Source: Flavobacteriales bacterium (GTDB taxonomy: Bacteria > Bacteroidota > Bacteroidia > Flavobacteriales_D > Parvicellaceae). From it: DNA of 47,602 nt. The DNA lies in the NCBI GenBank assembly GCA_029244805.1, contig JAQWQH010000104.1:1-47602 (forward strand). The letters run 5' to 3'. Below, piece after piece: positions 5,920-37,200 of the stretch. The position numbers and the translations under genes are program-made. Below the pieces are notes generated by a model. That model saw nothing but the letters and a program-made list of their open reading frames with translations, had not been told where the DNA came from and searched no databases. Positions within the stretch are counted from its first letter, which is position 1, and every line of letters begins with the position of its first letter.

Positions 5920-6570
5920 ATGACATCTAAGGAAATACGTCAAAAATTTCTCGACTTTTTTGCTTCAAAAAATCACACGATAGTTGATTCGGCACCTATG
6001 GTGGTGAAAGATGATCCTACGCTTATGTTTAACAATGCTGGGATGAATCAATTTAAGGATATATTCTTGGGTAATTCTACTCCCAAAGATGTTCGTGTTG
6101 CGAACTCTCAAAAATGTTTGCGCGTATCGGGAAAACACAATGATTTAGAAGAAGTAGGTGTAGATACATATCACCATACAATGTTCGAGATGTTAGGGAA
6201 TTGGTCTTTTGGAGATTATTTTAAAAAGGAGTCGATCGAATGGGCATGGGAATTATTGACGGCGGTATACGGTTTGGATAAGGATAGATTGTATATCACC
6301 GTTTTTAAAGGCGATAACGAAGATGGAACGGAGAAAGATCAGGAAGCTTATGATATCTGGAGATCAATAATTCCTGACGAGCATATTTTAGCATGTGACA
6401 AAAAAGATAACTTTTGGGAAATGGGAGATACTGGTCCGTGTGGTCCTTGCTCCGAGATTCATATTGATTTAAGGACGGATGCTGAACGAATAAAAGTGCC
6501 CGGTACTGAATTGGTAAATATGGATCACCCACAAGTGATTGAAATTTGGAATTTGGTTTTTATGCAATAA
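5920..6570 (+). CDS. alaS: Alanyl-tRNA synthetase, N-terminal fragment (ends at in-frame TAA)
   Basis: [51 protein letters not shown]...[21 protein letters not shown]...[11 protein letters not shown]; continues in the same frame after the stop. Confidence 0.9.
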
Positions 6571-6576
6571 AACCGA

Positions 6577-19322: not shown

Positions 19323-19448
19323 GCTGCAAAAGTAACAAAATGATAGGTTTGAGTTTAATAAATTCAAATTGAATCATTAATTATTCTACAAACGGCAATT
19401 ATTAGCACCTCAATAAGATTGCATTACTGTTTATATTCCTATTTTTAT

Positions 19449-21986
19449 GGCATGCATGCTAAAAGGCAAAAGAACAAAGTAAAGTCTTCGAGCTCGAAGA
19501 AAAAATGGCTTCCAATTATTGCGCTAATAATTATTGTCTTTTTGTACTATGGAGACACTTTGAACAATGGATACTCTCTTGATGATGATTTAGTAACTTC
19601 TACTGATAATAGTGTTCATGAAAGGGTTGAAAAAGGTGTTTCAGCTATTCCTGAAATTTTCACTACTCATTATGTCCAGACTGATAGGCAACAGTATGAA
19701 TATAGGCCCATGGTTACATCCAGTTTTGCTGTTGAATATCAATTCTTCGGGGATAAATCAATTAAGGAAAGAGCTTCAATCAGTCATTTAATTAATGTAA
19801 TGCTTTATGCGTTATTAATTGTGCTGATTTACTTATTGCTTTTCAAGCTTTTTCCGGATAAAGACTGGATTTTCCCTTTTACTGTGGCATTGCTTTTCCT
19901 GATTCATCCAGTACATTCCGAGGTAGTTAATAATATCAAATGTAGAGACGAATTATTTGTTTTGATTTTTGGTTTGCTTGGTGTATTCTCGTTTTTAAAA
20001 TATGTGGATTCAGGCTACAAAAAATGGATGCATTTGGTATTAGGCATCCTAATGCTTATGCTGGGTATTTTGTCTAAAAAAGTCGGAATTACATTTATTG
20101 TTCTTATTCCATTGATTTTATATTTTTTTAGAGACGTTAAAATCAAAAAATTTGCAGTTCTTTTTAGTTTAATGTTAATAGGTTTTTTTGTTTTCTTTTT
20201 ACTAAAAAAAGTAGCAGTTTCAGATGGCGTCAGTAGAGAGGTAATGTTTTTTGAAAACCCGCTTTATTTTGCAGAATCTAATTTGGCAAGAATACCAATG
20301 TTTTTTTATAGTATTCTGTATTATCTTAAGATGATGATTTTTCCAGCTCCCTTAGTTTATTATTACGGCTATGATCAAATTGAAATAGTCGGATGGAGTA
20401 ATCCATTTGTCTGGGTTGGAGTGGTGTTTGTTTTTTCCGGAGTGTTTTTTGCTATCAAGCGAATTAAGAAAAAGGAAATGTGGGCATTTGGATTTCTCTT
20501 TTTTATGTTTGGTGTTGGTGGTGGAGCTAATTTGTTGTTTCCCGCTGCAGGGATTGTTGCAGAAAGGTTTGTATTTACTGGTTCCTTTGGTTTAATATTC
20601 CTCTTGGGATATTACGGGTTAGAATTATTTGAAAAGCAGAAGTTAAGTAAGTTTAAACTTGCTTTTTATGGAATATCAGCAGGGCTTACTCTTTTGTCTT
20701 TTTCTCAAATAACAACACGAAATAAAGACTGGAATAGTCGATTTTCACTTTACAAGAATGATATTAAAAAACTGCCAAATTCAGCAAAGGCCCACAGTTT
20801 GTTGGGAACTGAATATGTTGCAAAGGCAGATTCTATTTCTCGAGTGCCTGGCTCTTCTCATGTTTTGTATATGGGTTATATTGATTCCGCTATCTTAGAG
20901 TTTGAATCCGGAATAAGGGTTTATGATGGATATTTTAATTGTGCAAATAATGCAGGAGCTCTATTATTTTCAAGAAAGAAAGATTATGTAAGAGCCAAAC
21001 CATTTTTTTTAAAGGCTCTTCAATACAAGCCAACGTATGTCGAAGCTCTTTTTAACTACGGAAGTTGTTTGGAAAGTGACTATAAAGGTATTGTTGAATT
21101 GCAACAAATATTGAGTGTGATTAAATTGGATTCCCTTGCTGAGTTTGATGTTTCCAATTCAAAGGACATATCTAATTATCAAAATGAAATAAAGGCAGCT
21201 TATTGCATTGACGCGATAAGTGTTGAAATACGACAAGTATTGAGTAAAATGAAGTTAAATAATCCTAATTGGGCCAGAATTGTGGTTGCTCAAATAATGA
21301 GGATTATTGATTCTTATGTAAAAGTAGAAACTGAAATTTTGGGTAAAGGGTTTGAACGAGAAGAATATTTAAAAAGGATAACCTTACATTGTGACAATGC
21401 CAAGGTAGGAAACCCACAGTTGAATTTGGAGAAAATGGTGGCGTATTCTGAAAGTTATTTTAAAAGCCTAATTAAAAAACACCTTTTCGGAAATTCGTCG
21501 AGTGATAGTAATTTTATGTTGCAATTGAAGTTTGATTTAGAAGCAATAAAATATAATGTTTTCGACTCAATTGAACATTATTGGTTTGCCGCCTTAGAGG
21601 AAAATCCGCAATATTACATAAGTTATAAATCATTATTAAATTTAGCTTTAAGAGAAAACAATTATGAAAAAGCAAATTCCATTTGCGATTTAGCTATTGC
21701 AAAGGCAGGATTCCAAGATAATACGGAGTGGCATGTAACTAAAGGTAATATTTTTAATACTCAAGGTGAGTATAATAATGCTATAGCTAATATGAAAAAA
21801 GCAGTTAATGAAATAGATAAACTCTATGCGTCCCAATTTAATGGGGAAGAAGATAATAGGCAAGTTGGATTAGCTAGCTTATTGAATCGTAAGAAACAGA
21901 TTCTAGGCTTTATTTCAAATATTTATTATGCTGCAGGGGATCAGAAGAGTGCATATAGGTATCAGGAGTTGTCGAAGGGTCTGTAA
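19449..21986 (+). CDS. Polytopic membrane protein with C-terminal TPR-like region (TMTC/GT-C-like)
   Basis: Multiple TM segments, loop acidic motif NGYSLDDDLVTS, HPVHSEVVNNIKCRDELF (resembles TMTC HPVHTEAV..GRAELL), C-terminal TPR-like helices. ATG at 19449 preferred over the track start at 19419. Confidence 0.7.
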   Translation, partial: GMHAKRQKNKVKSSSSKKKWLPIIALIIIVFLYYGDTLNNGYSLDDDLVTSTDNSVHERVEKGVSAIPEIFTTHYVQTDRQQYEYRPMVTSSFAVEYQFFGDKSIKERASISHLINVMLYALLIVLIYLLLFKLFPDKDWIFPFTVALLFLIHPVHSEVVNNIKCRDELFVLIFGLLGVFSFLKYVDSGYKKWMHLVLGILMLMLGILSKKVGITFIVLIPLILYFFRDVKIKKFAVLFSLMLIGFFVFFLLKKVAVSDGVSREVMFFENPLYFAESNLARIPMFFYSILYYLKMMIFPAPLVYYYGYDQIEIVGWSNPFVWVGVVFVFSGVFFAIKRIKKKEMWAFGFLFFMFGVGGGANLLFPAAGIVAERFVFTGSFGLIFLLGYYGLELFEKQKLSKFKLAFYGISAGLTLLSFSQITTRNKDWNSRFSLYKNDIKKLPNSAKAHSLLGTEYVAKADSISRVPGSSHVLYMGYIDSAILEFESGIRVYDGYFNCANNAGALLFSRKKDYVRAKPFFLKALQYKPTYVEALFNYGSCLESDYKGIVELQQILSVIKLDSLAEFDVSNSKDISNYQNEIKAAYCIDAISVEIRQVLSKMKLNNPNWARIVVAQIMRIIDSYVKVETEILGKGFEREEYLKRITLHCDNAKVGNPQLNLEKMVAYSESYFKSLIKKHLFGNSSSDSNFMLQLKFDLEAIKYNVFDSIEHYWFAALEENPQYYISYKSLLNLALRENNYEKANSICDLAIAKAGFQDNTEWHVTKGNIFNTQGEYNNAIANMKKAVNEIDKLYASQFNGEEDNRQVGLASLLNRKKQILGFISNIYYAAGDQKSAYRYQELSKGL

Positions 21987-22030: not shown

Positions 22031-22942
22031 TTAATAACCTGCTAGTTTGTCTTGAATTAAAAGAGATGTTTGGATTCCGCCTGTTTTATTTAAATGGTGG
22101 GAGTCGAAAAAATATTCGTTGTGTTTTAAAAATGCCTGTGAAAGGTCTAGCATTTCAAAACCTGCTTTTTTTATTAAAGTATCTGATTCATGAAAATAGT
22201 CACCGAATTTCTCAATTTCAATTTGCAAAGCTGCTGAGTGCGGGTACTTTATAAATATTGCTTTTTTATTGTATTTTTTTATTAATTGAAGAGTCATCTT
22301 AAGGTAGTTAATTGCAAGAGGAGAGTATATCTCCAACACCTGCTTGATCCCATGCTCTTGATTGATGTAGTTGTGTGCACTCAATGCCCTTTTTTGTTTT
22401 GTTAAAAGTGAAAAATTTATTCTCTCTTTTTCTTTTCTTTTCTTCTGGGATTGTAGCATATACCTGAGACTGATATACGGCAAGTACTTATGATAATATG
22501 ATTCTTTCATACTTTTATATCTAGATCCGGAAAGTGTTCCATATTCATGAAAATCGAAAAACCGCTTGTAAAAAAACATTTTATCAAGGTTCCCCGAAAA
22601 TCGCTTTGAGTAGTATCCAAAGTCATTTGGGAAGCAGATATATTCAAAGCTGTCTGAATAATTCTCTAGTAAATGTTTTAACAAGTAATATGCGTTAATG
22701 TTATTTTGTCCAAAAAAAGCCATGGAACAAGACGATTGTATTATCAGGGTGTCAATAGCTCTTTTTGTATGTGAAGTACCTAAGAATAAAAATTTTTGGA
22801 ATTCAGGATTTATCTCATATCGATCAAAATTGGCAACTATTTCATTCTTTATCTCAACTTTTTTATAAACGTATAACAAAGAAAAATGGAAAGCAAAAAG
22901 CAGTACTAAACAGAAGATGATATTTTTAAGTATTCTACTCAT
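22031..22942 (-). CDS. SGNH-hydrolase-like (DltD/AlgX-type) membrane-anchored protein
   Basis: N-terminal TM, FLFLGTSHTKRAID (GxS), C-terminal FFDSHHLNKTGG (DxxH); adjacent to MBOAT gene. Confidence 0.6.
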   Translation of the reverse strand: MSRILKNIIFCLVLLFAFHFSLLYVYKKVEIKNEIVANFDRYEINPEFQKFLFLGTSHTKRAIDTLIIQSSCSMAFFGQNNINAYYLLKHLLENYSDSFEYICFPNDFGYYSKRFSGNLDKMFFYKRFFDFHEYGTLSGSRYKSMKESYYHKYLPYISLRYMLQSQKKRKEKERINFSLLTKQKRALSAHNYINQEHGIKQVLEIYSPLAINYLKMTLQLIKKYNKKAIFIKYPHSAALQIEIEKFGDYFHESDTLIKKAGFEMLDLSQAFLKHNEYFFDSHHLNKTGGIQTSLLIQDKLAGY

Positions 22943-24361
22943 TTAAAATTGATAATAAATAAATGTGACTTCATCGTTGTAGCTATATAGCATAATCATA
23001 ACAATAAGAATAACATAAATCGTAAGTCGGATATAATTATGTTTTATAATTTCAACGGGAGTTGAGAGGTAGTTTTTTCTTAAATAATCTGCTGTCATTC
23101 CAATTAACATTAACATTATTATGTATGAAACAGTCCAGATATTAGTATTGCCAAAACTGAAGTTTCCAATGCGCGTTAATATGTCGATGCCTTGATCAAA
23201 AGTATCTGTTTTAAACCATATTGACGAGAAGGACAATATTGTAAGAGAATAAAAAATCAATACTAAATTGAAGAAGAAGGAAAGATTTCTTTTCTTATGG
23301 CGTTGTCGAATTTTCCTAGCAAATTTTGTTTTTCGTTCGATAATAATTGCTATGCCGTTTACAAGTCCAAACAACACAAAATTCCAGCTAGCTCCGTGCC
23401 ATAATCCGCTAATGAAAAAGACAATTAGTATGGCAGCGCTATTCCATTTACGGAACAATCTTCCTGATTTTATTAAAGGACGAAAAATATAACTAGTAAA
23501 GAAATTCATTAATGTTATGTGCCATTTAGTCCATAGCTCGGTCAATGTTCGGGAAGTTAAGGGGTTATTAAAGTTCATGCTCAAATCAATCCCGAATATT
23601 TTTGCTGATCCAATTGCTATATTGGTATAACCAGAAAAATCGAAATAAACTTGAAAAGCAAAAGCATAAACAGAAAGTGCTATTTCTAATGAGTTGTATT
23701 CGCTTGTGTTGGAAAAAACATAATTAACGAATGTTCCAATTGTGTCGGCGATTACAATTTTTTTAAATAATCCCCAAATAATTAATTTCCCCCCTTGAAT
23801 CAAATAATTAAATGCAGGAGTTACCTTTTTTTTAAGTTGGGGGATTAAATATTCTGAGCGTTCGATTGGTCCGGCTACTAGTTGAGGGAAAAAGGAAATA
23901 TACAGGGCATAATATCCAAAGTGCCGTTCAGGTTCTCTTTTTCGCTTATATACATCAATGGTATAGCTTAAGGATTGGAAAGTGTAAAATGAAATTCCAA
24001 TTGGTAAAATAATATTCTGTGTAATTGAATAGTTGGTGTCAAAATCGGATCCAAATAACAGATTGACATTTTCTAAAAAAAAACCAAAGTATTTGAAAAA
24101 GAAAAGTAATGATAAATCGGTTAATATTCCGATGCAAAAAAATAAAATGCTCCAATTTTTAAAGCGATACATCATGATGGCTGTAAAATATGCAATCACT
24201 GTAGAGGTTAGCATTACTATTGAATATTCGATGTGGATACTAGCATAAAATAAGTAGCTAGCAAATAATAAGATTACCCATCTAAACTTTATTCTGATTG
24301 CATAAGTTAATAGAACTACAAAAAGTAGAAAAATGTAATACTCTATCGTAATGAAGCTCAT
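22943..24361 (-). CDS. MBOAT family O-acyltransferase (AlgI/DltB-like)
   Basis: LPIGISFYTFQSLSYTIDVYKRKREPERHFGYYALYISFFPQLVAGPIERSEYLIPQLK, ELWTKWHITLMNFFTSYIFRPL, ISGLWHGASWNFVLFGLVNG. Confidence 0.93.
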   Translation of the reverse strand: MSFITIEYYIFLLFVVLLTYAIRIKFRWVILLFASYLFYASIHIEYSIVMLTSTVIAYFTAIMMYRFKNWSILFFCIGILTDLSLLFFFKYFGFFLENVNLLFGSDFDTNYSITQNIILPIGISFYTFQSLSYTIDVYKRKREPERHFGYYALYISFFPQLVAGPIERSEYLIPQLKKKVTPAFNYLIQGGKLIIWGLFKKIVIADTIGTFVNYVFSNTSEYNSLEIALSVYAFAFQVYFDFSGYTNIAIGSAKIFGIDLSMNFNNPLTSRTLTELWTKWHITLMNFFTSYIFRPLIKSGRLFRKWNSAAILIVFFISGLWHGASWNFVLFGLVNGIAIIIERKTKFARKIRQRHKKRNLSFFFNLVLIFYSLTILSFSSIWFKTDTFDQGIDILTRIGNFSFGNTNIWTVSYIIMLMLIGMTADYLRKNYLSTPVEIIKHNYIRLTIYVILIVMIMLYSYNDEVTFIYYQF

Positions 24362-24504: not shown

Positions 24505-24537
24505 ATTGAGTAGTAGGAAAAAAGAATTGTTACATTT
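24505..24537 (+). promoter_or_regulatory. Candidate Bacteroidota promoter TTG-N22-TACATTTG upstream of the KASIII operon
   Basis: TTG at 24505-24507, 22-nt spacer, TACATTTG at 24530-24537, 33 nt before the GTG start. Confidence 0.6.
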
Positions 24538-24570: not shown

Positions 24571-25584
24571 GTGCCCTATCTTGATTCCAAAATAAGTTAT
24601 TGTCTTTCCTCTAAAGCTGTTACCAATAAAGATTTGGCCAATGAGTTTAAGGAAACTTCAGCAGGTGCTATCTTCGCAAAAACAGGTATTTCAACTCGTT
24701 TTCAGGCAGAAGGAGATGTTGTAGCATCAGATTTAGGTTTTCTGGCCGCTGAAAAATTATGCAAAGAACATAATATTCAAAAGGAAAAAATTGACTTTAT
24801 AATCTTCGTCTCATCGTGTCTTGATTATAAGTCTCCAACTACAGCATGCGTTCTTCAAGATCGATTAGGGTTAAACACCAATATTGGAGCGATTGATATT
24901 TTACATGGTTGTACAGGTTTTATTTATGGGTTAAGTGCAGCGAAAGGATTAATTGCAACAGGTGAAGCAGAAAAAATATTATTAATTACGGCTGATTCGC
25001 CCACCAAACTGGTACATCCAGAAGACTTGGAGTTGCTGTCAATATTTAGTGACGGGGCAGCTGCTACCTTAGTAACCAATCAAAGCGCAAAGGCTTCAGG
25101 TAAAATAGGGAAGTTTGTTTTTGGTACGGATGGCCTTGGAGCAAAAAACTTGATGAGTACTCGCTCTGGAATGAGAAATCCTACAGATGCAAATTGGTTT
25201 AAAGAGAATAAAAAAGTTCCGTCAGGTTTAAAATGGGGAAAGCTTGAAATGAATGGTTCGCAAATATTTATCTTTTCAATTCGGACAGTTCCTAAATTAG
25301 TGAATACTATTTTGAATAAAGAAAATTTGGCAATGGAAGAGATAGATTTATTTGTGTTTCATCAAGCCAATGGCGTGATGTTAGATTTTTTAAGAAGCAA
25401 ATTGAGAATACCGAAAAAAAAGTTTTACCTTAACATTGAAAACAAAGGAAATACCGTTTCAGCAACAATTCCTATCGCTTTAAAAGATGCATTTTCAGAA
25501 GGACTAATTACGAAAGGATGTAGGGTCTTAGTTGCAGGTTTTGGGATTGGTTATTCATGGGGTGGAACTGTCATTAGATATTAA
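24571..25584 (+). CDS. 3-oxoacyl-ACP synthase III (KASIII/FabH-like), copy 1
   Basis: GTG start; Cys in ILHGCTGFIYGL, His in LFVFHQANGVMLDFL, Asn in ENKGNTVSATIPIAL; GFGIGYSWGGTVIRY C-terminus. Confidence 0.9.
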   Translation: MPYLDSKISYCLSSKAVTNKDLANEFKETSAGAIFAKTGISTRFQAEGDVVASDLGFLAAEKLCKEHNIQKEKIDFIIFVSSCLDYKSPTTACVLQDRLGLNTNIGAIDILHGCTGFIYGLSAAKGLIATGEAEKILLITADSPTKLVHPEDLELLSIFSDGAAATLVTNQSAKASGKIGKFVFGTDGLGAKNLMSTRSGMRNPTDANWFKENKKVPSGLKWGKLEMNGSQIFIFSIRTVPKLVNTILNKENLAMEEIDLFVFHQANGVMLDFLRSKLRIPKKKFYLNIENKGNTVSATIPIALKDAFSEGLITKGCRVLVAGFGIGYSWGGTVIRY

Positions 25585-25586
25585 AT

Positions 25587-25823
25587 ATGGAAATTGAGGT
25601 TTTTTTAGGGAAAATTAAAGCAGAATTTAATGAAGATTACGACACAGGAGATCTTGGGCTTGATGACAACATCAAGAATATGGAATGGTGGAGCTCAATG
25701 CACGCACTTGTTATAATAGCATTAATAGATACAGAATATGATGTAATGTTGGAGCCTTCTCAAATGAAAAGTGCAAACACGGTACGTGAATTATTTACTT
25801 TGATAAACAACATTAAAGGCTAG
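25587..25823 (+). CDS. Acyl carrier protein-like protein
   Basis: 78 aa, acidic, DDNIKNMEWWSSMHALVIIALIDTEYDVMLEPSQMKSANTVRELFTLI; candidate phosphopantetheine Ser in WSSMHAL; between two KASIII genes. Confidence 0.75.
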   Translation: MEIEVFLGKIKAEFNEDYDTGDLGLDDNIKNMEWWSSMHALVIIALIDTEYDVMLEPSQMKSANTVRELFTLINNIKG

Positions 25824-25825
25824 AT

Positions 25826-26878
25826 ATGGCTTTGATGGATATAAGGAATTGGAAAATTTCTGGAATTGCTGCTGCAGTGCCCAGGAATGTTATTGAGAAC
25901 TCAGATTATTCGGTATTGTCTGCATTAGAGAAAAAATTACTTATTAAAACAACAGGAATAGAGCGAAAGCACGTAGCAGAAAAAAATCAAACAACTTCAG
26001 ATTTATGCGAGGTTGCAGCGAATAAGCTTTTGGATAGATTGTCCTGGAATAGAGAGGATATTGATTTGATAGTTTTTGTAAGTCAATCTCCTGATTATTA
26101 TCTTCCAGCAACAGCCATAATATTACAGAACAAATTAAATCTTTCATCTAATTGTCTTGCTTTTGATGTTGGACTGGGTTGCTCAGGATATGTCTATGGT
26201 TTATCGATTGTTGCAAGCATGATTTCTGCCGGACATTTGAAAAAAGCATTATTATTAGTCGGAGACGTTTCGTCTTCTACGGTGTCCTTATTCGATAAAA
26301 GTACTTATCCTCTTTTTGGGGATGCAGGAACAGCTACTGCAATTGAATTTTCTGAAAATAGTTCTGGGCAATTTAACATGATGAGTGATGGGGGAGGTTT
26401 TGAAACCATAATTATTAGAGATGGAGGAATTCGAAATAAAGTATCGAAAGAATCATTTGATCTTAAGGAAATCGGCGAAGGTATAAGCAGACGTGATCTT
26501 GATCTAGAGCTAGATGGATTGGAAGTTTACAGCTTCTCAGTTTCAAAAGTGCCACCGTTAATTAAAGTGCTTTTGAAAGAAACTAACACTATGCCGGAGG
26601 ATTATCATTATTTTGTAATGCATCAAGCAAATCGTTTAATGAATGAAACTATTCGTAAAAAATTAAAATTCACAAAAGAACAATCACCATATTCTTTAAA
26701 GGATTACGGTAACACTAGCTCAGCATCTATCCCTCTCACAATTTGTTCAGAATTGAGTGGAAAAGTTGAGACTGAAAATCAAAAAGTCCTTCTGTGTGGA
26801 TTTGGAGTGGGTCTTTCGTGGGGAGCAGTTACGTTGAATTTGGATAAAATTACATGCTTGCCAATAATTGAAGTTTAA
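25826..26878 (+). CDS. 3-oxoacyl-ACP synthase III (KASIII/FabH-like), copy 2
   Basis: Cys in GLGCSGYVYGL, His in YFVMHQANRLMNETI, Asn in KDYGNTSSASIPLTI. Confidence 0.9.
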   Translation: MALMDIRNWKISGIAAAVPRNVIENSDYSVLSALEKKLLIKTTGIERKHVAEKNQTTSDLCEVAANKLLDRLSWNREDIDLIVFVSQSPDYYLPATAIILQNKLNLSSNCLAFDVGLGCSGYVYGLSIVASMISAGHLKKALLLVGDVSSSTVSLFDKSTYPLFGDAGTATAIEFSENSSGQFNMMSDGGGFETIIIRDGGIRNKVSKESFDLKEIGEGISRRDLDLELDGLEVYSFSVSKVPPLIKVLLKETNTMPEDYHYFVMHQANRLMNETIRKKLKFTKEQSPYSLKDYGNTSSASIPLTICSELSGKVETENQKVLLCGFGVGLSWGAVTLNLDKITCLPIIEV

Positions 26879-26879
26879 T

Positions 26880-27626
26880 ATGGAGTTTTTAGGGTTAAGA
26901 AATAAAAAAATATTAGTAACCGGAGCTTCCTCTGGCATAGGAAAAGAGACATGTCAACTTTTGTCAAGCATTGGAGCTGATATTTATATTACGGGACGCA
27001 ATATGGAAAGGTTGGAAGAATTGAGGGATAACTGTAAAAATGTTAAGCAACTAATAGCCGCCGATTTAACAGATGATGATTCTATAGAAAGCCTAGTGGA
27101 TAGTATTCCTATGTTGGACGGTGTTGTAAATTGCGCGGGAATAATATTTCCTTTTCCAGTTAAATTTATTGGGGAGAAGCATATCTCTAGTGTATTTAGA
27201 ATTAATTTTAATTCGCAGGTCATCTTAAATTCAATGTTGTTTAGAAAAAAGAAAATACAAAAAAGTGCCTCTATTGTTTTTGTGTCTTCCGTGTCTAGTC
27301 AGTTCCCATACGAAGGAGGGGCCTTATATACAAGTTCAAAAGCAGCAATCGAAGCATATTCAAGAGCTACTGCATTGGAATATGCTAAGTATTCAATTCG
27401 GTCAAATGTGGTGTCTCCAGGTTTGGTGAAAACAAAAATATTTGAGAAGACAATGGAGGCCTCTAGTAAAGAAGAATTAGAAAACTATGAGAAAAACTAT
27501 CCATTAGGATACGGTGACCCTATAGATGTAGCTAATTCAATAGTTTTTTTATTATCAGCTAGATCAAGGTGGATAACAGGGCAAAATATAATATTAGATG
27601 GAGGATTAACATTAGGAAGTAAATGA
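26880..27626 (+). CDS. SDR family oxidoreductase (FabG-like)
   Basis: VTGASSGIGKETCQLL, NCAGIIFP, FVSSVSSQFPYEGGALYTSSKAAIEAYSRATALEYA (YxxxK), SRWITGQNIILDGGLTLGSK. Confidence 0.93.
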   Translation: MEFLGLRNKKILVTGASSGIGKETCQLLSSIGADIYITGRNMERLEELRDNCKNVKQLIAADLTDDDSIESLVDSIPMLDGVVNCAGIIFPFPVKFIGEKHISSVFRINFNSQVILNSMLFRKKKIQKSASIVFVSSVSSQFPYEGGALYTSSKAAIEAYSRATALEYAKYSIRSNVVSPGLVKTKIFEKTMEASSKEELENYEKNYPLGYGDPIDVANSIVFLLSARSRWITGQNIILDGGLTLGSK

Positions 27627-28558
27627 GTCAAGATAAATTAGATATTTCAGTGGTTATTCCGGTCTTTAATGCGGAAAAGTCACTTGTAGAGTTGAATCAT
27701 CAGTTGATTAGTTTCTTGAATGGAAAAAACATATTATTTGAGATAATTTATGTTGATGATCATTCGTCTGATAGCTCATGGGAAATTCTTCAAGATTTGC
27801 AGCTTAACAATACAGGCATTGTTAAGGTTATTCGCTTAGTAAAAAATGTTGGGCAACATGAGTCACTTATGTGTGGGCTGAATTTTTCAAAAGGTAAAAG
27901 TATTATTACCATGGATGATGATTTGGAGCATTCACCTGCGGATATAGAAATTTTATTGGAGGCTAAAAAAACCACCGGTTCTAATATTTTATATGGGATG
28001 TATCCAATCGACAAGTCACAAAGAGTTAGAAGGATGTTAAAGCGTTTCTATCGTTTTCTCTCAAAATCGGAAGGAATTAATAAGGCAAAAGGTTCTAGCT
28101 TCCGCTTATTAGATACCTCTATTGTCAGTAATATTAAAAAGCATGAATACAGCTTTATTTGGTTAGATGAAATGTTTTTATGGTATAACCCAAGCCCCGA
28201 GTTTGTCCAATTGGACAGGGTTGAAAATTCCTCGAATAAAGCTTCGCGGTATAGCTTGTTCAAGTTGATTGGATTAACTTTTAATGTAATGCTCTACACC
28301 ACAACTATTCCTCTTAGGTTATTTATTTATGTTGGATTTAGCTTGTCTGTTGTTAATTTTCTCATTGGAACATTTTATATTATCAAAAAGCTAGTTCTTG
28401 GTACTCAACAACTTGGATATACCTCATTGATAGTTTCTATTTTATTTACCTCAGGAATTATGTTGATAGGTGTAGGTATAATAGGTATTTATTTATCTCG
28501 TCTTTATAGCTTAATGAATAAAGAGCCGCGCTACACAATTGAAGAAAAAAAATGCTGA
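27623..28558 (+). CDS. Glycosyltransferase family 2, GtrB/ArnC-like polyprenyl-phosphate sugar transferase
   Basis: VVIPVFNAEKSLVELNHQLISFL, IIYVDDHSSDSSWEIL, ITMDDDLEHSP, two C-terminal TM helices LFIYVGFSLSVVNFLIGTFYI and LIGVGIIGIYLSRLYSLMNKEPRYTIEE; starts in an ATGA overlap with the SDR stop. Confidence 0.9.
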   Translation: MSQDKLDISVVIPVFNAEKSLVELNHQLISFLNGKNILFEIIYVDDHSSDSSWEILQDLQLNNTGIVKVIRLVKNVGQHESLMCGLNFSKGKSIITMDDDLEHSPADIEILLEAKKTTGSNILYGMYPIDKSQRVRRMLKRFYRFLSKSEGINKAKGSSFRLLDTSIVSNIKKHEYSFIWLDEMFLWYNPSPEFVQLDRVENSSNKASRYSLFKLIGLTFNVMLYTTTIPLRLFIYVGFSLSVVNFLIGTFYIIKKLVLGTQQLGYTSLIVSILFTSGIMLIGVGIIGIYLSRLYSLMNKEPRYTIEEKKC

Positions 28559-29163
28559 CTCTCTATCAATATGGTGTAACCTTAAAGAGGCTCGAGATTA
28601 ACGATATAGAGGAAGTTAGGAGTTGGAGGAATTTTCATTATATCCAGAACAAAATGCAGTTTACAGAAGATATTTCTTCTGAAATGCAATTGATTTGGTT
28701 TAATTCTATAAATAACAAACTCAATTATTACTTTATAATAATTGATCAAAATGGTAAAAGGGTAGGGTTAATAAACTCCAAAAATGTTGATTTAAAAAAT
28801 AAAAATGGAGAAGGGGGAATTTTTATAAGTGATAGGGCTGTTTGGAATACTATTACTCCGGCGGTTGCTAGTGTTATATTACTGAATTTTTCTTTATGTT
28901 GCTTACAGTCATTTGATCGGTCCTTGATAACAATAATAAAGTCGAATACCTCAGCAATTAATTATAATAATAAGTTGGGATACTCTGTAGTTGATGAAGA
29001 TGATTTTGCAGTTAGGATGGAACTTACAAAAGAATCCTATGTGCATAGTGCAAAAACGTATTTAAAAGCACTAGATAAACTTTACCCTAATGATAAAGAA
29101 TTAATAATTTCAGGGTCAGTTTCGGATATCAATATTCAAGAAATAAACGACCTTTTAAAATAA
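28552..29163 (+). CDS. GNAT-like N-acyltransferase
   Basis: VTLKRLEINDIEEVRSWRNFHYIQNKMQF...YYFIIIDQNGKRVGLINSKNVD...IKSNTSAINYNNKLGYSVVDEDDFAVRMELTKESY, GNAT-type fold signature (PseH/FdtC-like); overlaps the GT2 stop. Confidence 0.75.
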   Translation: MLTLYQYGVTLKRLEINDIEEVRSWRNFHYIQNKMQFTEDISSEMQLIWFNSINNKLNYYFIIIDQNGKRVGLINSKNVDLKNKNGEGGIFISDRAVWNTITPAVASVILLNFSLCCLQSFDRSLITIIKSNTSAINYNNKLGYSVVDEDDFAVRMELTKESYVHSAKTYLKALDKLYPNDKELIISGSVSDINIQEINDLLK

Positions 29164-29168
29164 AGGTT

Positions 29169-29855
29169 CTACTGATTTAAACTTTCTTCTGGAAATATTC
29201 CTTTTTCCAGCCATTTCAACCAAGTTTTTTTGTCAGCAATATTTAATAGAAAAGGATCATCTATGTTTTCTATTTTATAGCGATTAATTTGTTCAGCATT
29301 ATATTTTCCTTCTGGATTGGCAACGTCGATCATTAAAACGATTCGTCTTTTATCTGAAAGGTTCCATGCTTCATGCATTTTTGAGTCATCAAATGTCATT
29401 ACCTCACCCTCTGTCCAGGAAGTTTCTTCATCCTCTACTTTTATTTTACAAAGATTTTGTGAGGGTATTTCCAGAGCTAAATGACTTCGTAAGACCATTC
29501 TAGAGTATCCCGAATGCGGTTCTACTATGGTTTTTGGACTAAGAACAGAAAATTGAGCAGTTACTAAATCCGGAATTTTTTGTAATAAAGCATATGTTTT
29601 TGGGCAGTTTAAACAGTGGTTTATTTGTTTGATTCCAAAAAAATAGAATTCATAAGTTTTCCAAGCTTCTTTGTTCTTTGAGTTGACGTAATGTGGGTGA
29701 GCCAAAAACCATCTATTTTTATAGGTTAAAACATCCGATTGGTCCAAAGCCAATTGCATTTCTGCTTTTATATCTTTCCAGTTATCTTCCAGCAAAGAGG
29801 ACCAAGAAAATTTATTCCGCATAAAATAAGAAGTTTCGCTATTGGTTGATTGCAT
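29169..29855 (-). CDS. Aspartyl/asparaginyl beta-hydroxylase family (AspH/LpxO-like) protein, copy 1
   Basis: VEPHSGYSRMVLRSHLALEIP...CKIKVEDEETSWTEGEVMTFDDSKMHEAWNLSDKRRIVLMIDVANPE; two putative Fe-ligand His conserved. Confidence 0.88.
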   Translation of the reverse strand: MQSTNSETSYFMRNKFSWSSLLEDNWKDIKAEMQLALDQSDVLTYKNRWFLAHPHYVNSKNKEAWKTYEFYFFGIKQINHCLNCPKTYALLQKIPDLVTAQFSVLSPKTIVEPHSGYSRMVLRSHLALEIPSQNLCKIKVEDEETSWTEGEVMTFDDSKMHEAWNLSDKRRIVLMIDVANPEGKYNAEQINRYKIENIDDPFLLNIADKKTWLKWLEKGIFPEESLNQ

Positions 29856-29964: not shown

Positions 29965-30726
29965 TTGGAACAGAAAGCTAAAATGTGGTTTGCGTATTTC
30001 ACTTCTTCCAGTTATCAGGATGAAGAGAATTTTATTCCCTCGGAAAGACTGGGTTGGAGTTTGCAAATACTTTCAAAGGCAAACGAGATTTGTGCCGAAG
30101 TAGAAACGCTTTTGGCTAGTAAGGGTTTTACGCCAAAAGGGTATTTTATTGAAGGGCTATCAAAGGATAATGGGTGGCAAACCTATAGTCTTAAGACTTG
30201 GGGTGTAGAGGTGAAAAAAGCACTGAAAACCATGCCAATTCTTAATAATATAATAAAGAGAAATTCAAATATTGTTTCAGTATCAATAAATGTACTTAAT
30301 CCAGATGGCGAAATTAAAGGGCATTATGGTGATTCGAATACTTTTCACCGAAGTCATTTTGGTGTCCAAATTCCCGAAGGATTGCCTAATTGTGGCTTCA
30401 AGGTTAATGACGAATCTAAGGCATGGGAACTAGGAAAGTTACTCACTTTTTCGGATAGCAACTATCATTCAGCCTGGAATTATTCTACTGAAAAACGCGT
30501 AATTGTGGTTTTTGATGTTATAAAAAGCCAATATGAGTCGCGTCGAAGATATATTTGTTTTAGAGTTAGGTCCTTTCTGATATTGCAATTATTCTTTGAA
30601 AAGTCCCATACAATAAGAAAATTACCCAAATGGATCCATAAAATAATGGGAGCTTTTATAGCATCAATATTGTTTTGTATTTATCCATTACAAAAAATTA
30701 CAGGTACCATAAAAAAACACAATTGA
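29965..30726 (+). CDS. Aspartyl/asparaginyl beta-hydroxylase family (AspH/LpxO-like) protein, copy 2
   Basis: TTG start; IKGHYGDSNTFHRSHFGVQIPEGLPNCGFKVNDESKAWELGKLLTFSDSNYHSAWNYSTEKRVIVVFDVIKSQ; hydrophobic C-terminal extension. Confidence 0.87.
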   Translation: MEQKAKMWFAYFTSSSYQDEENFIPSERLGWSLQILSKANEICAEVETLLASKGFTPKGYFIEGLSKDNGWQTYSLKTWGVEVKKALKTMPILNNIIKRNSNIVSVSINVLNPDGEIKGHYGDSNTFHRSHFGVQIPEGLPNCGFKVNDESKAWELGKLLTFSDSNYHSAWNYSTEKRVIVVFDVIKSQYESRRRYICFRVRSFLILQLFFEKSHTIRKLPKWIHKIMGAFIASILFCIYPLQKITGTIKKHN

Positions 30727-31481
30727 AAAAACAAGAGGTTAAAATATGGCATTCGTTTGCGGAGAAGGGCGAGTATCAAGGTGCGGATCCTTCATATTTT
30801 GATATTTCCTCGTTTGATTGGTATTCTATTTTAAAGAATAGCACTGATGTTTTTAAAAAGGAAGTGTTGGAGGCCCAGGGAGAAATATTTATTCCTTATT
30901 ACAATCGTACGTTTTCAAATACCCCGGAAAGTTGGAAGATTATACCGTTGTTCAGTTGGTTAAAACGTTTTGATACCAATTTAGCAAAAATGCCAAAATC
31001 TAAAAACATACTAAGTCAAATTCCTTTTTTAGTATCTGCTGCTTACAGTCGGTTGGATAATTCCTCCTTAATAAAGGAGCACATAGGAGATTCCAATGCA
31101 ATTTACAGGGTGCATATCCCTTTAGTTATTCCTGCTGGGCTGCCAGAATGTGGAATTGAGGTGCGTAAAGAAAGGAGAGAGTGGGTGGTTGGGGTGCCCT
31201 TTGCCTTTTGTGATGCTCATAAACATAGTGCATGGAATAAAACAAGCGAAAAAAGAATAGTGTTGCTTCTTGATATTATTAGGCCAGAATTCGCGTCCAA
31301 AACAAAGTGGATTTGCGCTCAAATGAGGTCTTCCTTGATGCTTCAGTTTCTTTTTCAAAAAACAGAGTTAATTCACAAATTACCTCGATTTATGAGAGTT
31401 TTACTGATGAATTTTGGCGCAGGGATAATTTATCCTTTTCTCTTGAGTCAGCGAACAAAAACAGGTAAGTATTTGAGTTAG
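30723..31481 (+). CDS. Aspartyl/asparaginyl beta-hydroxylase family (AspH/LpxO-like) protein, copy 3
   Basis: IKEHIGDSNAIYRVHIPLVIPAGLPECGIEVRKERREWVVGVPFAFCDAHKHSAWNKTSEKRIVLLLDIIRPEF. TTG at 30723 overlaps the upstream TGA stop (TTGA); track ORF extends to 30675. Confidence 0.85.
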   Translation: MKKQEVKIWHSFAEKGEYQGADPSYFDISSFDWYSILKNSTDVFKKEVLEAQGEIFIPYYNRTFSNTPESWKIIPLFSWLKRFDTNLAKMPKSKNILSQIPFLVSAAYSRLDNSSLIKEHIGDSNAIYRVHIPLVIPAGLPECGIEVRKERREWVVGVPFAFCDAHKHSAWNKTSEKRIVLLLDIIRPEFASKTKWICAQMRSSLMLQFLFQKTELIHKLPRFMRVLLMNFGAGIIYPFLLSQRTKTGKYLS

Positions 31482-32503
31482 TATTTTCTATTTTTAAAAA
31501 TTTTTATTTTCATTTTTAGCGGTAGTTTATAGTAGATTATATTTTGTACAAATAGATAGGAATAATAGAATAATCGAAAAGGTATACTTAGCCCTTGTAT
31601 AAGTAGCTTGTGGGATAAATTGTATTCTTTTTCCTGAGAGTGGCCAAGTTTTAGAGAGGTGTTTCGGCAAATAACGTCACATATCAAAATCTCTCTTTTT
31701 CTTAAATGTTGGCTCCAAACATTAATCCGCTCCGTAGAAATGGGTTTCTCAAGGTTACTGTGCATCGATTGCACCTTTGTTTTTTGTCCTTCTGTTAGTG
31801 ATGAATCCTGAATTTTCTTCTCTAGATTAACTTTGGTGTAATAATTCAATACTTCCTCCTCATATTCAAGACCAATAAACTGAAACATGTCCTTTAGTTT
31901 GGCGGTTGGATTTTCTACCAGGCTTTCATAGCGAACATGGAAAATATTCTTTTTCGAAATCATTTTTAAAATCCGCTTATTGTAATGATTCCATGAGAGA
32001 GCCAAGATAAAAACAGAAACTCTTTTACTAGATGAGAATTTTTTTCTAGAAGAAATATTGTCGCGATAATTTCTCGAAATCGCTAAGAATTTTGCATTTG
32101 AGCATGTTTTCTCAAGTTGTTTTAAATGTAAGGTATATTCGGGGTTTTTATCAAAAATTAGTTGAACATTCTTTTCTTCAATTTTAATGGAAGAACTTAA
32201 ATAGATCTGTCGGATAATATCTTCCTTCGTGAAAGACTCTTGTTTTAAGTCAATAGATCCTTTCCAGACACTCATAGTAGTATTTGTGTTAAGGCCTAGA
32301 GAGGTGTTTATTAGGTCAATGTCTTTTCCTGAGAATGTTGTTTTTTTATTTAAATATGAAGCTATAAAAAGTAAAAAGTTGTTTTCAGGACTAGCGTATA
32401 TTTTAGAATGTGAATTTAGAATGCTTGTTAACAAGGAGGTACCTGATCTTCCCATTCCAATAATGAAATTAAAAGAGGGGTTAAAATTTGTGCTTTTGTT
32501 CAA
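31478..32503 (-). CDS. Sulfotransferase family protein, copy 1
   Basis: N-terminal FIIGMGRSGTSLLTSILNSHSKIYASPENNFLLF (5'-phosphosulfate-binding-type loop), FLAISRNYRDNISSRKKFS, VRYESLVENPTAKLKDMFQFIGLEYEEE. Confidence 0.85.
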   Translation of the reverse strand: MNKSTNFNPSFNFIIGMGRSGTSLLTSILNSHSKIYASPENNFLLFIASYLNKKTTFSGKDIDLINTSLGLNTNTTMSVWKGSIDLKQESFTKEDIIRQIYLSSSIKIEEKNVQLIFDKNPEYTLHLKQLEKTCSNAKFLAISRNYRDNISSRKKFSSSKRVSVFILALSWNHYNKRILKMISKKNIFHVRYESLVENPTAKLKDMFQFIGLEYEEEVLNYYTKVNLEKKIQDSSLTEGQKTKVQSMHSNLEKPISTERINVWSQHLRKREILICDVICRNTSLKLGHSQEKEYNLSHKLLIQGLSIPFRLFYYSYLFVQNIIYYKLPLKMKIKIFKNRKY

Positions 32504-32515
32504 AATTAAAAAATG

Positions 32516-33565
32516 TTAAGTTATTTTTGAAACAATATTCTTGAGTCTTTTCAATTTAATCGCGTAAGGCAATTTAAATAATATTTTTTGTTTAGTGATA
32601 GATAACCTGCCTTTTATATATGATCGAGAGCATTTGAATATAATCGGTTTGTTAAATGGTTTGAATTTTTTATAACCAAAATTGTTTCCAAACCGGGAGC
32701 AGATAATATCACAGTTTTTGATTTCTTCTTCGCTTAATGCAGTTTTCCATTTGTCTATGCGAGATGTGTAAATTGGGCTGTTGACTGATTTGATTTTTGT
32801 TTCAAGAATTTTAATTTGAACAGGACTAAGGTGCTTGTATTTTTCTGTCAAATTGTTTTTTTGTTGTTCTTCTCTTGTGGAAAGGAGCTCCTTTGAATAT
32901 GGAATACTTAGAAATGAGAATATTTTCTTGACTGTTTTGTCTTGATTGGTCACCAGGTCCTCGTACTTGATAAATAGAACTTTATTCGGGTTTTTAGATT
33001 TGAACTTTAACAAAGACTGATTGAATTTTAGCCAACGGATAGCGTTGTAGACTGTCTCAGGAGTTCTCCAGTGTGTTTTTTCCTTTCTAGAAAGAATATT
33101 TGCTCTATAATCCCTTATCATTACTATGGCTTTAGAGTTTTCATTTAATTGAAGCAATTGCTCTCCAAAAAGACTATTTCCAGGGTTTTTTTCTACAATA
33201 TGCCGAATTTCCTGCTTATCATGATTTGGAAACTTAAATTGTAAGTGAATTAAGTTGATTAGATCGTCAAATGTTATTTCTAATGGGTACTTAATTGATT
33301 TGAAGTAAGAATATTCGAATCTCCAATTTATAAAAGGGGATAATTTTTCGTTTGTAGCTATATAGTCTAGTATTGCTGTAATATCTTTTTCAGTATATAC
33401 CGTTTTGTTTTTGAAGCTAGAAAAAAAAAACTGAGTAAAAACACTTTCTGGTGTTGCTAAGACATTTTTATGCCGATTAAAAATATTGACCAAGAGTGTT
33501 GTTCCAGATCTTCCAATACCGAGTATGTAGTGTCTTGTTATAGGTTGTTTATTTTGATTCGTCAT
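32516..33565 (-). CDS. Sulfotransferase family protein, copy 2
   Basis: YILGIGRSGTTLLVNIFNRHKNVLATPES, AIVMIRDYRANILSRKE, IKYEDLVTNQDKTVKKIFSFLSIPY; tandem paralog of copy 1. Confidence 0.85.
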   Translation of the reverse strand: MTNQNKQPITRHYILGIGRSGTTLLVNIFNRHKNVLATPESVFTQFFFSSFKNKTVYTEKDITAILDYIATNEKLSPFINWRFEYSYFKSIKYPLEITFDDLINLIHLQFKFPNHDKQEIRHIVEKNPGNSLFGEQLLQLNENSKAIVMIRDYRANILSRKEKTHWRTPETVYNAIRWLKFNQSLLKFKSKNPNKVLFIKYEDLVTNQDKTVKKIFSFLSIPYSKELLSTREEQQKNNLTEKYKHLSPVQIKILETKIKSVNSPIYTSRIDKWKTALSEEEIKNCDIICSRFGNNFGYKKFKPFNKPIIFKCSRSYIKGRLSITKQKILFKLPYAIKLKRLKNIVSKIT

Positions 33566-33824: not shown

Positions 33825-34190
33825 ATGAAAAAACCTATATTATTTTGCCTGTTTTTGGCTAGCTTTTCGATTACTCAAAATGTTAGTGCTCAGAAAATTG
33901 AAACTTTAGAATCTCCAGAATATAAGAGGGAAAGACCTGTCAGGGTTGAAGCGCTGCCGCAGTATATTCCCTTGTATGTTATTTCCGATAAAGAGTTGCC
34001 TACGTATTTTGTTTCTGGAGAAATTCCTGAATCATTTCCGAAATACGATCCGAATATAAAAAAAGCAGCAAATAAAAAAATTGCGATGGAATGGTGTATT
34101 GTTCCATCAAATCGAGTTTTGCTTACAGAAGATGCAAAAGTTCGGGTTGATGCAAAGCTGGAAAAACTAAAAGCTAAATCAAACAAATAA
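33825..34190 (+). CDS. Small secreted hypothetical protein
   Basis: Signal peptide MKKPILFCLFLASFSITQNVSAQ, 121 aa; 39 nt upstream of the giant repeat protein. Confidence 0.65.
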   Translation: MKKPILFCLFLASFSITQNVSAQKIETLESPEYKRERPVRVEALPQYIPLYVISDKELPTYFVSGEIPESFPKYDPNIKKAANKKIAMEWCIVPSNRVLLTEDAKVRVDAKLEKLKAKSNK

Positions 34191-34229: not shown

Positions 34230-37200
34230 ATGAGATATATATATTACTCTTTAATATTGCCATTCTTTTTGGGAATTTCAAATGATGTTTTATCACAAGG
34301 AACAACATGTGCTGATGCTGATCCCTTTTGTACAGGAACTACCTATAGCTTTCCAAATAATACAGGGACTTCTGCTCAATCTGGTCCTGATTATGGGTGT
34401 TTAATCAGTCAGCCTAATCCTGCTTGGTATTATCTACAGATTGATCAATCTGGAACTATTCAAATGGATATTTCACAAGTCAATGCTAGTGGTTCTGGTA
34501 TTGATGTAGATTTCATTGCTTACGGTCCCTTTGGGTCTGCTGCTGCAGGATGTGGGGCACTAACTTCTGCAAATACCGTCGACTGCAGCTATTCTTCATC
34601 TGCGAATGAAACAGCAACAATAACAGGAGCCGTTTCAGGGGAGTATTATATTGTGTTAATAACTAATTTTTCAAATCAATCAGGTAACATTTCTTTTTCG
34701 CAGACCGGAGGTACGGGAACTACTGATTGTTCAATTGTTGCACCAACATGCCCAACTGTAGGGTTTCATGTTGAAAGCGTTGGTGTTCCGAATGCAGGTG
34801 CTGTTATTGATTTGCCGATTTCGGTGGATTGTGATGTTGATGGTTGGGTGTTTTTGCGTCATGACGACGTTGCTACGGCCGGTGGCTTGCTAACTCCAAC
34901 TGCAACGGTAAATATTACAACCAACGGAGAGACTGCAGGAAATAATATTTATGGTTATGAGAATAATGGAGGAACCTGGAATAGCTATTGGAGTTCACAA
35001 AATATTCCTTCGAATACAAATTTTTCCTTTACAATGTATGAAATGGATAATGTTACGGCGACTTCATTTGGAGTTGAAATGTGTGATGTTAATTCTGGTT
35101 CTGACATGAGTTATACAATTGTTGACGATAATTGTGGAACAACAATAGCAACAGGAACGTGGGGTGCCAGTGATGGTTCGAATTCAGGGTCTGCAGGGCC
35201 TAATGGAAACCCAACTAGTGGAGGCTGTTCATTTGTATCTTTTGCACCAGGACAAGTGAGCGGTTCAGCTGTATATACTTGCCCTACTTGTCCAGCTGGT
35301 TCATTTGTTACAACCGACTACGGGTTTGCTTATTTTAATCCTGCACAAGCAGGGCCTGGTACTTACGATATTACTTATTGTTTTGATAATGGATGTGGAT
35401 GTTCCGGATGTCAAACTGAGCAAATAACGGTGGTTAACCCATATGATGCTTCTTTTACATATTCAGCTTCTTCGTATTGTCAATATGATGCTGATCCAAC
35501 TGCCTCTATCACAGGGGATGTAGGAGGGTCATTTACTTCTACCCCTGGTGGCTTGTCTTTGAATAGTGCTTCTGGAGCAATTGATGTTTCCGCTAGCACA
35601 CCCGGAACCTATACGGTTTCATATACGGTAGGATCTGGCGCTATAGATTATTCAGGTAGTTGTAATGATGTAGTTGATGCTACCGTTATAATTGGAGCAA
35701 CTCCCACAGCAAATGCTGGTTCCAATGCAGTTGTTAGTTGTGCTAATCCAACCACTACATTAACTGGTGCTGGTGGTGGAACATATTCATGGGTTGCTTC
35801 GGGTGGAGGTAATATAACCTCGGGGTCAGGCAATGCAACACCAACCGTTGATGCAGCAGGAACATATACATTAACTGTAACCAATGCTGATGGGTGTATA
35901 GACTCGGATATAGTTACGGTTTCAGAGGATGTTACACCGCCAACAGCTGGATCAAGTGCTGCTGGAATAATTGATTGTAACAATACGACTACAACTGTAA
36001 CTGGATCAGGTGGAGGAACGTATGCATGGGTCGCTTCAGGTGGTGGAAATATTACTTCTGGTGCTGGATCCGCAACTGCAACCGTTGATGCAGCTGGAAC
36101 TTATACAGTTACCGTAACAGGAGCAAATGGATGTGTAGATACAGATGTAACTGTGGTTTCTGATGATTTGACCACTCCAACAGCGAATGCGGGACCTGCA
36201 GGCGTTATAGATTGTAATAATGCTACTTTGAATCTTTCCGGTTCAGGTGGAGGTGCTTATTCATGGGTTGCCTCTAATGGTGGAAATATTACCTCTGGTG
36301 CAAGCTCCGCTAACCCTTCAATAAATGCTGCTGGAACTTATACAGTTACGGTAACAGGGTCTAATGGCTGTGCGGATACGGATGTTACTACTGTAGCAAC
36401 GGATCTAACGCCACCAACTGCAGATGCTGGATCAGATGGAGCAATTGATTGTACTGTGTCTGCAGCTGATTTAACCGCAACTGGTGGCGGAACATATTCA
36501 TGGGTTGCCTCTTCCGGTGGAAATATAACAAGTGGTGCAAATTCAGCTACGATGACTGGAAATGCTGCTGGAACCTATACAGTTACCGTGACAGGAGCAA
36601 ATGGATGTACAGACACGGATTTAGCTGTTATAACTTCGAATGTTACCGTTCCTACTGCTGACGCTGGTTTGGATCAAACATTGGATTGTAATAATGCAAC
36701 AGTTAATATGACTGCTACAGGTGGAGGGACATATGCATGGGTGGCTACAGGTGGAGGTAATATTACTTCAGGGGCTGGTTCAGCAACGGTTACTGCGGAT
36801 GCAAATGGGACTTATACAGTTACAGTTACAGCAACAAGTGGATGTACATCCACTGATGCTGTGCAAGTAACAACTAGCCCAACTCCAACTGCTTCGATCA
36901 GTGGAGGAGGTACAATCTGTGCAGGCGAGGTTATACCCGATGTAACAATTAACTTGACCGGTTCTTCTCCTTGGACAGTCACTTATAATGATGGAAGTTC
37001 CAATATAACAATTAACCCAGCAACATCTCCAGTTACAATTTCTGGAGGAATTGATGGAGTATATACTATTGTTAATGCTTCAGATGCTACAACTTGCCCA
37101 GCAACAATAAGTGGTTCTGCAGTTATTACCACAAACCCCTTGCCAGTTGCTGTTCTAACAGGAGGCGGTACAATTTGCGCAACTGATCCAATTCCAGATG

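Follow-up and report, generated by a model that had tools for sequence, protein, structure and literature searches.

One described route to a hydroxyacylated surface sugar is the wfp locus of Flavobacterium psychrophilum, where Cisar et al. 2019 described two ketoacyl synthases (wfpC and wfpE), an acyl carrier protein (ACP; wfpD), a ketoreductase (wfpF), and a PglD-like acyltransferase (wfpG), and proposed that wfpC-G build the 3,5-dihydroxyhexanoyl group on Qui2NAc4N of the O-polysaccharide, an amide whose structure was established chemically (PMC6519341). Here, we analysed a 47,602-nucleotide (nt) stretch of a Flavobacteriales bacterium (contig JAQWQH010000104.1 of assembly GCA_029244805.1, 88% complete), hereafter the window, in which six plus-strand genes at 24571-29163 encode, in order, two ketoacyl-ACP synthases of type III (KASIII-1 or K1, and KASIII-2 or K2) on either side of an ACP, a short-chain dehydrogenase/reductase (SDR), a family 2 glycosyltransferase (GT2), and a GNAT acyltransferase. 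The original prediction took these six genes for a dedicated hydroxyacyl-sugar pathway and missed a seventh member, a TMTC-like membrane glycosyltransferase of the C type (GT-C), which would supply the transfer step. The cassette is real and conserved and probably is a hydroxyacyl-sugar pathway, partly anticipated by published work. What it adds to the wfp proposal is the TMTC-like member, which sets the GT2-GNAT-TMTC combination apart, the replacement of K1 by a ligase at other loci, and divergent alleles at one site in genomes of the same genus.

Compared by published description rather than by sequence, wfp and the window have in common a pair of ketoacyl synthases together with an ACP, a ketoreductase, and an N-acyltransferase, and the original prediction was right about the amide on Qui2NAc4N in F. 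psychrophilum. The wfp genes alone include a PglD-type acyltransferase and lie in a Wzx/Wzy locus with Qui2NAc4N genes, whereas the window has a GtrB-like GT2, an FdhC-like GNAT, and a TMTC-like GT-C without local sugar genes; PglD, wzx, wzy, pglE, and pglF were not found among the window genes scanned. Two Flavobacterium loci of O-antigen type (L109 and L124) carry KAS-ACP-KAS-SDR genes of the same KASIII family in a similar layout beside PglD, their KASIIIs falling inside the K2 group. The window class, lacking PglD and local Qui2NAc4N genes, is not simply the F. psychrophilum O-antigen locus.

A second comparison is the viosamine island of Pseudomonas syringae, where vioS, vioR, acp, and vioB make 3-hydroxybutyryl-viosamine and deletion of vioR loses the modified sugar; it likewise combines a KASIII, an ACP, a ketoreductase, and an acyltransferase, so that a nucleotide amino sugar bearing a 3-hydroxybutyryl amide is made for glycosylating protein (PMC3927599). 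The island differs in having a single KASIII, a flagellin glycan, the transferase VioT, and a local VioA, with no GtrB-like GT2 or GT-C reported. Single enzymes offer further comparisons. FdhC, a sugar N-3-hydroxybutanoyltransferase of the GNAT superfamily (structures 5kta and 5ktc), is about 20% identical to the window GNAT, and its product complex holds coenzyme A (CoA), while an ACP donor is presumed for the window enzyme. GtrB (sll0501) and ArnC align with the GT2 over nearly its full length, with the GT2 below the curated ArnC cut-off, and the TMTC-like protein resembles TMTC protein O-mannosyltransferases in its membrane part, where DD, YRP, and HPxHxE motifs are conserved, and in the tetratricopeptide repeats (TPRs) that come after it; the window protein differs in falling below the PF08409 cut-off and in its expected donor, an acylated amino sugar. 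Whereas the idea of acyl building is already published for F. psychrophilum, neither the TMTC-like partner nor the wide spread of the cassette was found described: no existing description of a GT2-GNAT-TMTC class was found in the open-access literature (most subscription journals were not covered), and the literature searched yielded no bacterial TMTC-like protein whose donor or acceptor is characterised.

Gene content and conservation of the cassette

All six plus-strand open reading frames (ORFs) of the original prediction are present and tightly packed (Table 1), with gaps of 2 nt at K1/ACP, 2 nt at ACP/K2, and 1 nt at K2/SDR, a 4-nt ATGA overlap at SDR/GT2, and a 7-nt overlap at GT2/GNAT. 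K1 starts with GTG, at a point equivalent to the start of its homologues, and the most likely SDR start is the ATG 1 nt past the K2 stop, the mechanical ORF opening at 26868. Domain searches matched ACP_syn_III in both ketosynthases, adh_short in the SDR, Glycos_transf_2 in the GT2, and Acetyltransf_4 in the GNAT, and the predicted SDR motifs TGxxxGIG and YxxxK are there in the forms given in Table 1. Neither the operon nor the scanned genes on its flanks include a dehydratase or enoyl reductase, again as predicted, and a plasmid search found nothing. The candidate TAnnTTTG promoter did not hold up: the window has 47 occurrences of the motif, whereas shuffles lead one to expect 69, and at a frequency no higher than chance its copies at 24531 and 24564 do not count as evidence of a promoter.

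A KASIII-2 profile matched bacterial genomes at 547 or more related sites, 80 of which were fetched and joined with 12 neighbourhoods from relatives, minus one duplicate, to give 91 loci, nearly all from Bacteroidota (a few metagenome-assembled bins carry other labels). The exact order K1-ACP-K2-SDR-GT2-GNAT recurs in 29 of the 91, and the arrangement is thus more than chance; GT2 is present in 72 and GNAT in 63, mostly adjoining each other. Among 147 high-quality Bacteroidota genomes, sampled evenly across the phylum, ten have a K2 homologue and only one of these ten a GNAT. The K2 family therefore serves in at least two contexts, and the window class is rarer.

Both KASIIIs match PF08545 and PF08541, and the Cys-His-Asn triad noted in the window proteins is kept in 28/28 K1 and 40/40 K2 (68/68). 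In a maximum-likelihood tree of 84 proteins, K1, K2, and housekeeping FabH separate into three groups, each with 100% bootstrap support, and the phylogenetic check suggested with the original prediction thus keeps the pair apart from primary FabH; the window KASIIIs also miss the cut-off of the FabH model TIGR00747. Trp32, Arg151, Lys214, and Arg249 of Escherichia coli FabH contact CoA and ACP. They are fixed in 15/15 Bacteroidota FabH and all replaced in window K1 and K2; among the five commonest residues tabulated per position for 28 K1, 40 K2, and 15 FabH proteins, none of the four is listed for the K1 and K2 homologues save Arg151 in two K2. Arg36 is kept in 4/28 K1 and in no K2 among the residues listed, while at the position of the gating Phe87 most K1 have a small residue and K2 have Leu, Ile, or Met. 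On this pattern, K1 and K2 should be active, with primer or carrier contacts that differ from those of FabH, and the predicted acetyl-CoA-primed K1 step, though possible, is doubtful now that both lack Trp32, Arg151, and in most cases Arg36.

A clue to the order of condensation comes from loci with at least 5 kb upstream, where an adenosine monophosphate (AMP)-ligase accompanies 16/31 loci without K1 vs 1/37 with K1 (Fisher p 2.5e-6, loci treated as unrelated). An AMP-ligase can load a ready-made acid onto an ACP, and its exchange for K1 suggests that K1 supplies the starter and that K2 acts after K1 or the ligase. Separately, the Bacteroidales-type loci L060-L102 make up a second cassette class without K1, with AMP-ligases, sulfotransferases, and clustered B12-radical SAM genes (43 genes across 21 loci). 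As to the carrier, the window ACP alone matches PF00550 below threshold (E 0.0065); since 23/30 homologues match at E<=0.01 and the attachment Ser of a W-x-S-[MILV] motif is invariant in 87/87, the 78-residue protein is an ACP, as predicted.

Table 1 Features of the cassette and its surroundings in the window
Feature	Position	Strand	Remarks
TMTC-like GT-C membrane glycosyltransferase with TPR tail	19419..21986	+	855 aa; seventh cassette member
MBOAT partner protein	22031..22942	-	homologous genes at 8 loci; itself without a family match
MBOAT O-acyltransferase between TMTC-like gene and K1	22943..24361	-	recurrent, optional (9 loci)
KASIII-1 (K1), ketosynthase with Cys-His-Asn, without FabH Trp32, Arg151, Lys214, Arg249	24571..25584	+	337 aa
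Dedicated ACP, attachment Ser in W-S-S-M-H-A-L	25587..25823	+	78 aa
KASIII-2 (K2), ketosynthase, clade apart from K1 and FabH	25826..26878	+	350 aa
SDR, FabG-like ketoreductase, TGASSGIG and YTSSK	26880..27626	+	248 aa from ATG
GT2, GtrB/ArnC-like polyprenyl-phosphate sugar transferase, hydrophobic C-terminal part, DDD motif	27623..28558	+	
GNAT, FdhC-like sugar N-acyltransferase candidate	28552..29163	+	203 aa
AspH-family (aspartyl/asparaginyl beta-hydroxylase, LpxO/OlsC-like) oxygenase 1	29169..29855	-	recurrent, optional
AspH-family oxygenase 2	29965..30726	+	recurrent, optional
AspH-family oxygenase 3	30675..31481	+	recurrent, optional
PF13469 sulfotransferase 1	31478..32503	-	recurrent, optional
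PF13469 sulfotransferase 2	32516..33565	-	recurrent, optional
Ig-like repeat surface protein, type IX (CHU_C) sorting domain, 25% Ser+Thr	34230..40973	+	2247 aa

Proposed sugar acylation and lipid loading, and the TMTC-like partner

As regards ACYLTRANSFERASE and the sugar, the closest solved relative of the GNAT, by sequence and fold, is FdhC, whose structure contains CoA and 3-[(R)-3-hydroxybutanoylamino]-3,6-dideoxy-D-galactose. The profile and fold searches suggested with the original prediction gave E 3e-5 against 5kta for the single sequence (phmmer), E 4e-12 with a profile, and FdhC 5ktc as the top Foldseek match (template-modelling score, TM, 0.70) of a predicted model with a mean confidence (pLDDT) of 94.7; SpeG and PseH score close behind. 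Together, sequence and model suggest a nucleotide amino sugar as the substrate class. The GtrB/ArnC-like assignment of the GT2 was borne out by matches to 5ekp/sll0501 (GtrB; E 4e-40, query 5-307) and ArnC 9bhc (E 7e-31, query 8-308), the alignments including the C-terminal membrane part, with 118 bits against PRK10714 lying under the curated ArnC cut-off.

The TMTC-like protein has a multi-helix membrane part ahead of its TPR tail, and its homologues keep invariant DD, YRP, and HPxHxE motifs, with PF08409 (TMTC) matched in 14/30 and PMT_2 in 12/30. Among relatives, a homologue at E<1e-40 occurs in 11/11 cassette-bearing vs 0/49 other genomes, a weaker one accompanying the cassette variant of G059 (L046). 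In G002, of the same genus, the TMTC-like gene runs directly into K1, and G003, also of that genus, has neither cassette nor TMTC-like gene. In the phylum-wide draw, just one of the ten K2-positive genomes has a TMTC-like gene, namely the one that has the GNAT, and there the gene lies about 1.5 kb from K2; TMTC-like genes occur in five K2-less genomes as well. The GT2 and the GT-C are therefore genetically linked, as in three-component glycosylation systems (GtrA flippase, GtrB GT2, GT-C), and look like the donor-loading and transfer steps of such a system.

The same site further shows strong allelic divergence within the genus. Between the genome analysed here and G002, flanking housekeeping genes are 91-98% identical, vs only 51% for K1, 51% for ACP, 57% for K2, 39% for SDR, 37% for GT2, and 35% for GNAT, and within the K1 clade the proteins from G000, G001, and G002 each take up a separate position. 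On these comparisons, the divergent same-site alleles are allele replacement, as at serotype loci. A separate observation in G001, likewise of this genus, is a TMTC-like gene riddled with stops (G001:C7:193033-194343) and a rearranged cassette, its GT2 inverted and apart, possibly decay in progress.

Weighing the explanations

Our best explanation, held with moderate confidence, is a three-component-type surface-glycan cassette whose donor sugar carries a KASIII-built hydroxyacyl amide. In the reactions that we infer from sequence, K1, ACP, K2, and SDR would make up a short type II ketide line of their own that skips dehydration: K1 would make a starter 3-oxoacyl-ACP, the SDR would reduce it, K2 would add a second unit, and the SDR would reduce again, giving a short 3-hydroxy or 3,5-dihydroxy acyl-ACP (by analogy, 3,5-dihydroxyhexanoyl). 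The FdhC-like GNAT would use this acyl group to acylate the amine of a nucleotide-linked amino sugar, which the GtrB/ArnC-like GT2 would then load onto polyprenyl phosphate. Once flipped, the sugar may be passed by the TMTC-like GT-C to a protein or a further glycan outside the inner membrane, and the hydroxylases, sulfotransferases, and MBOAT encoded nearby could diversify the product. In its acyl-sugar part, the original prediction thus finds support from the KASIII clades, the ACP, the FdhC-like GNAT, and the GtrB-like GT2, though not as a new idea, having been proposed before (PMC6519341).

As to the sugar source, WecE/DegT-type aminotransferases near K2 in several GNAT-class loci argue for the three-component-type cassette. 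Such genes lie within about 10 kb in 18 loci; the first one scanned scores above the WecE cut-offs, and 15/15 match WecE models to some degree, a number of them belonging to other DegT types. WecE as a universal sugar source was rejected, its presence among relatives not tracking the cassette. Elsewhere in the genome, a wbp-like locus encodes a WbpE-like aminotransferase, a flippase-like gene adjoins one for another DegT aminotransferase, and there is a PglF-like dehydratase (all named by sequence inspection).

Several points weigh against this explanation. First, as the original prediction noted, the window scan found no amino-sugar pathway, and no WecE orthologue was found in the 88%-complete genome or in a 99%-complete operon-bearing relative (G004). 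Second, use of acyl-ACP instead of acyl-CoA by the GNAT is assumed, and the starter is uncertain with FabH Trp32 and Arg151 absent from K1 and K2. Third, the window TMTC-like protein matches PF08409 only at E 9e-4, and a fold search with its whole model, which the TPRs dominate, gave TPR proteins only, for which reasons "TMTC-like" is the proper name. Finally, no dedicated flippase was recognised in the cassette, Wzx-like genes being found only near 12 other loci.

The alternative that survives best, unlikely as we judge it, is a three-component-type modification of lipopolysaccharide or another polysaccharide, in which one acylated sugar would be attached by the GT2 and the TMTC-like GT-C to a glycan already in place, in the manner of Gtr or ArnC-ArnT, and not to protein; it has every step in common with our best explanation and differs only by fixing the acceptor. 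GtrB/GT-C pairs that modify glycans are well known, the GT2 is closest to GtrB sll0501 and ArnC, and variable alleles would fit serotype conversion, whereas in its TMTC signature and TPR tail the GT-C is like eukaryotic protein O-mannosyltransferases, and it has no match to Gtr or ArnT families.

Less probable again is an ordinary wfp-type O-antigen cassette, in which the acylated sugar would enter a Wzx/Wzy O-polysaccharide repeat and the TMTC-like gene would be a mere neighbour or act elsewhere. The KAS-ACP-KAS-SDR logic is the same, Flavobacterium loci with PglD-type neighbours (L109, L124, L115, and L121) carry same-clade KASIIIs, and the one-site allele replacement resembles serotype loci. 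Against it, the window class has a GNAT and a GtrB-like GT2 instead of PglD and a phosphoglycosyl transferase, wzx, wzy, and nucleotide-sugar genes are missing from the stretch scanned, and the TMTC-like gene, so tightly associated with the cassette among relatives, occurs in 0/8 loci without GNAT.

There is a slim chance that the cassette is a small lipid or natural-product pathway (e.g., for an N-acyl amino acid or sulfated lipid), with the GNAT acylating a non-sugar amine and the sugar genes incidental: FdhC-related GNATs include the SpeG polyamine acetyltransferases, which have similar fold scores, and LpxO/OlsC-like hydroxylases and sulfotransferases recur as neighbours, yet the frequency and usual adjacency of GT2 and GNAT across the 91 loci, the nearby WecE-type aminotransferases, and the lack of any GNAT match to OlsB-type N-acyltransferases speak against it. 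A second FabH set for primary fatty-acid synthesis was rejected and is next to implausible: K1 and K2 are the only KASIIIs found in the assembly, which we attribute to its incompleteness because cassette-bearing relatives carry a normal FabH-like protein elsewhere, and the pair has separate clades and has lost the FabH docking residues.

Neighbouring genes and biological meaning

Across the 91 loci, recurrent neighbours include sulfotransferases (40), B12-radical SAM genes (21), AspH-family hydroxylases (15), Wzx-like flippases (12), and MBOAT pairs (9), the hydroxylases lying at 12/37 loci with K1 vs 0/31 without. Directly after the GNAT, where other loci carry AspH hydroxylases, L047 (13369-16032) has a Cupin_8/JmjC-like oxygenase, and similar-looking tandem genes occur there and in L058 (5220-9417). 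In four Flavobacterium loci (L115, L116, L121, and L123), an extra gene separates SDR from K1, and K1 is followed by a PglD-like gene; the extra gene of L115 encodes a Rieske ring-hydroxylase-like oxygenase, and the variant may represent a further oxygenated acyl form.

Downstream lies the large Ig-like repeat protein of Table 1, preceded at 33825-34190 by a small putative secreted protein present in G001 and G002 and not in the cassette-less G003; pairs of a similar small protein and a CHU_C protein also lie near the cassette at several other loci. A bolder proposal, quite doubtful as a whole, is that the TMTC homologue O-glycosylates type-IX-secreted surface proteins, such as this one, with a sugar whose ketide-built polyhydroxyacyl amide is hydroxylated and sulfated, the acyl module being exchanged among strains in a serotype-like manner. 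CHU_C proteins are generally common in Bacteroidota, and the D-S/T-x glycosylation motif of Bacteroidetes, known from Porphyromonas gingivalis, Tannerella, and Bacteroides, has only 5 copies in the Ig-repeat protein, which is why its role as glycan acceptor is kept as speculation. At a distance from the cassette, the alanyl-tRNA synthetase gene (5920-8559) is broken by an in-frame TAA near 6568-6570, its second part open in the same frame, which may be an assembly error or a real break.

The near-obligatory partnership of the TMTC-like gene with the acyl-sugar cassette gives a testable donor pathway for bacterial TMTC-like proteins. It also widens the wfp idea from one fish pathogen to a Bacteroidota cassette family with interchangeable starters (ketosynthase or AMP-ligase) and tailoring enzymes, an interchangeability that would predict chemically diverse, serotype-like surface sugars.

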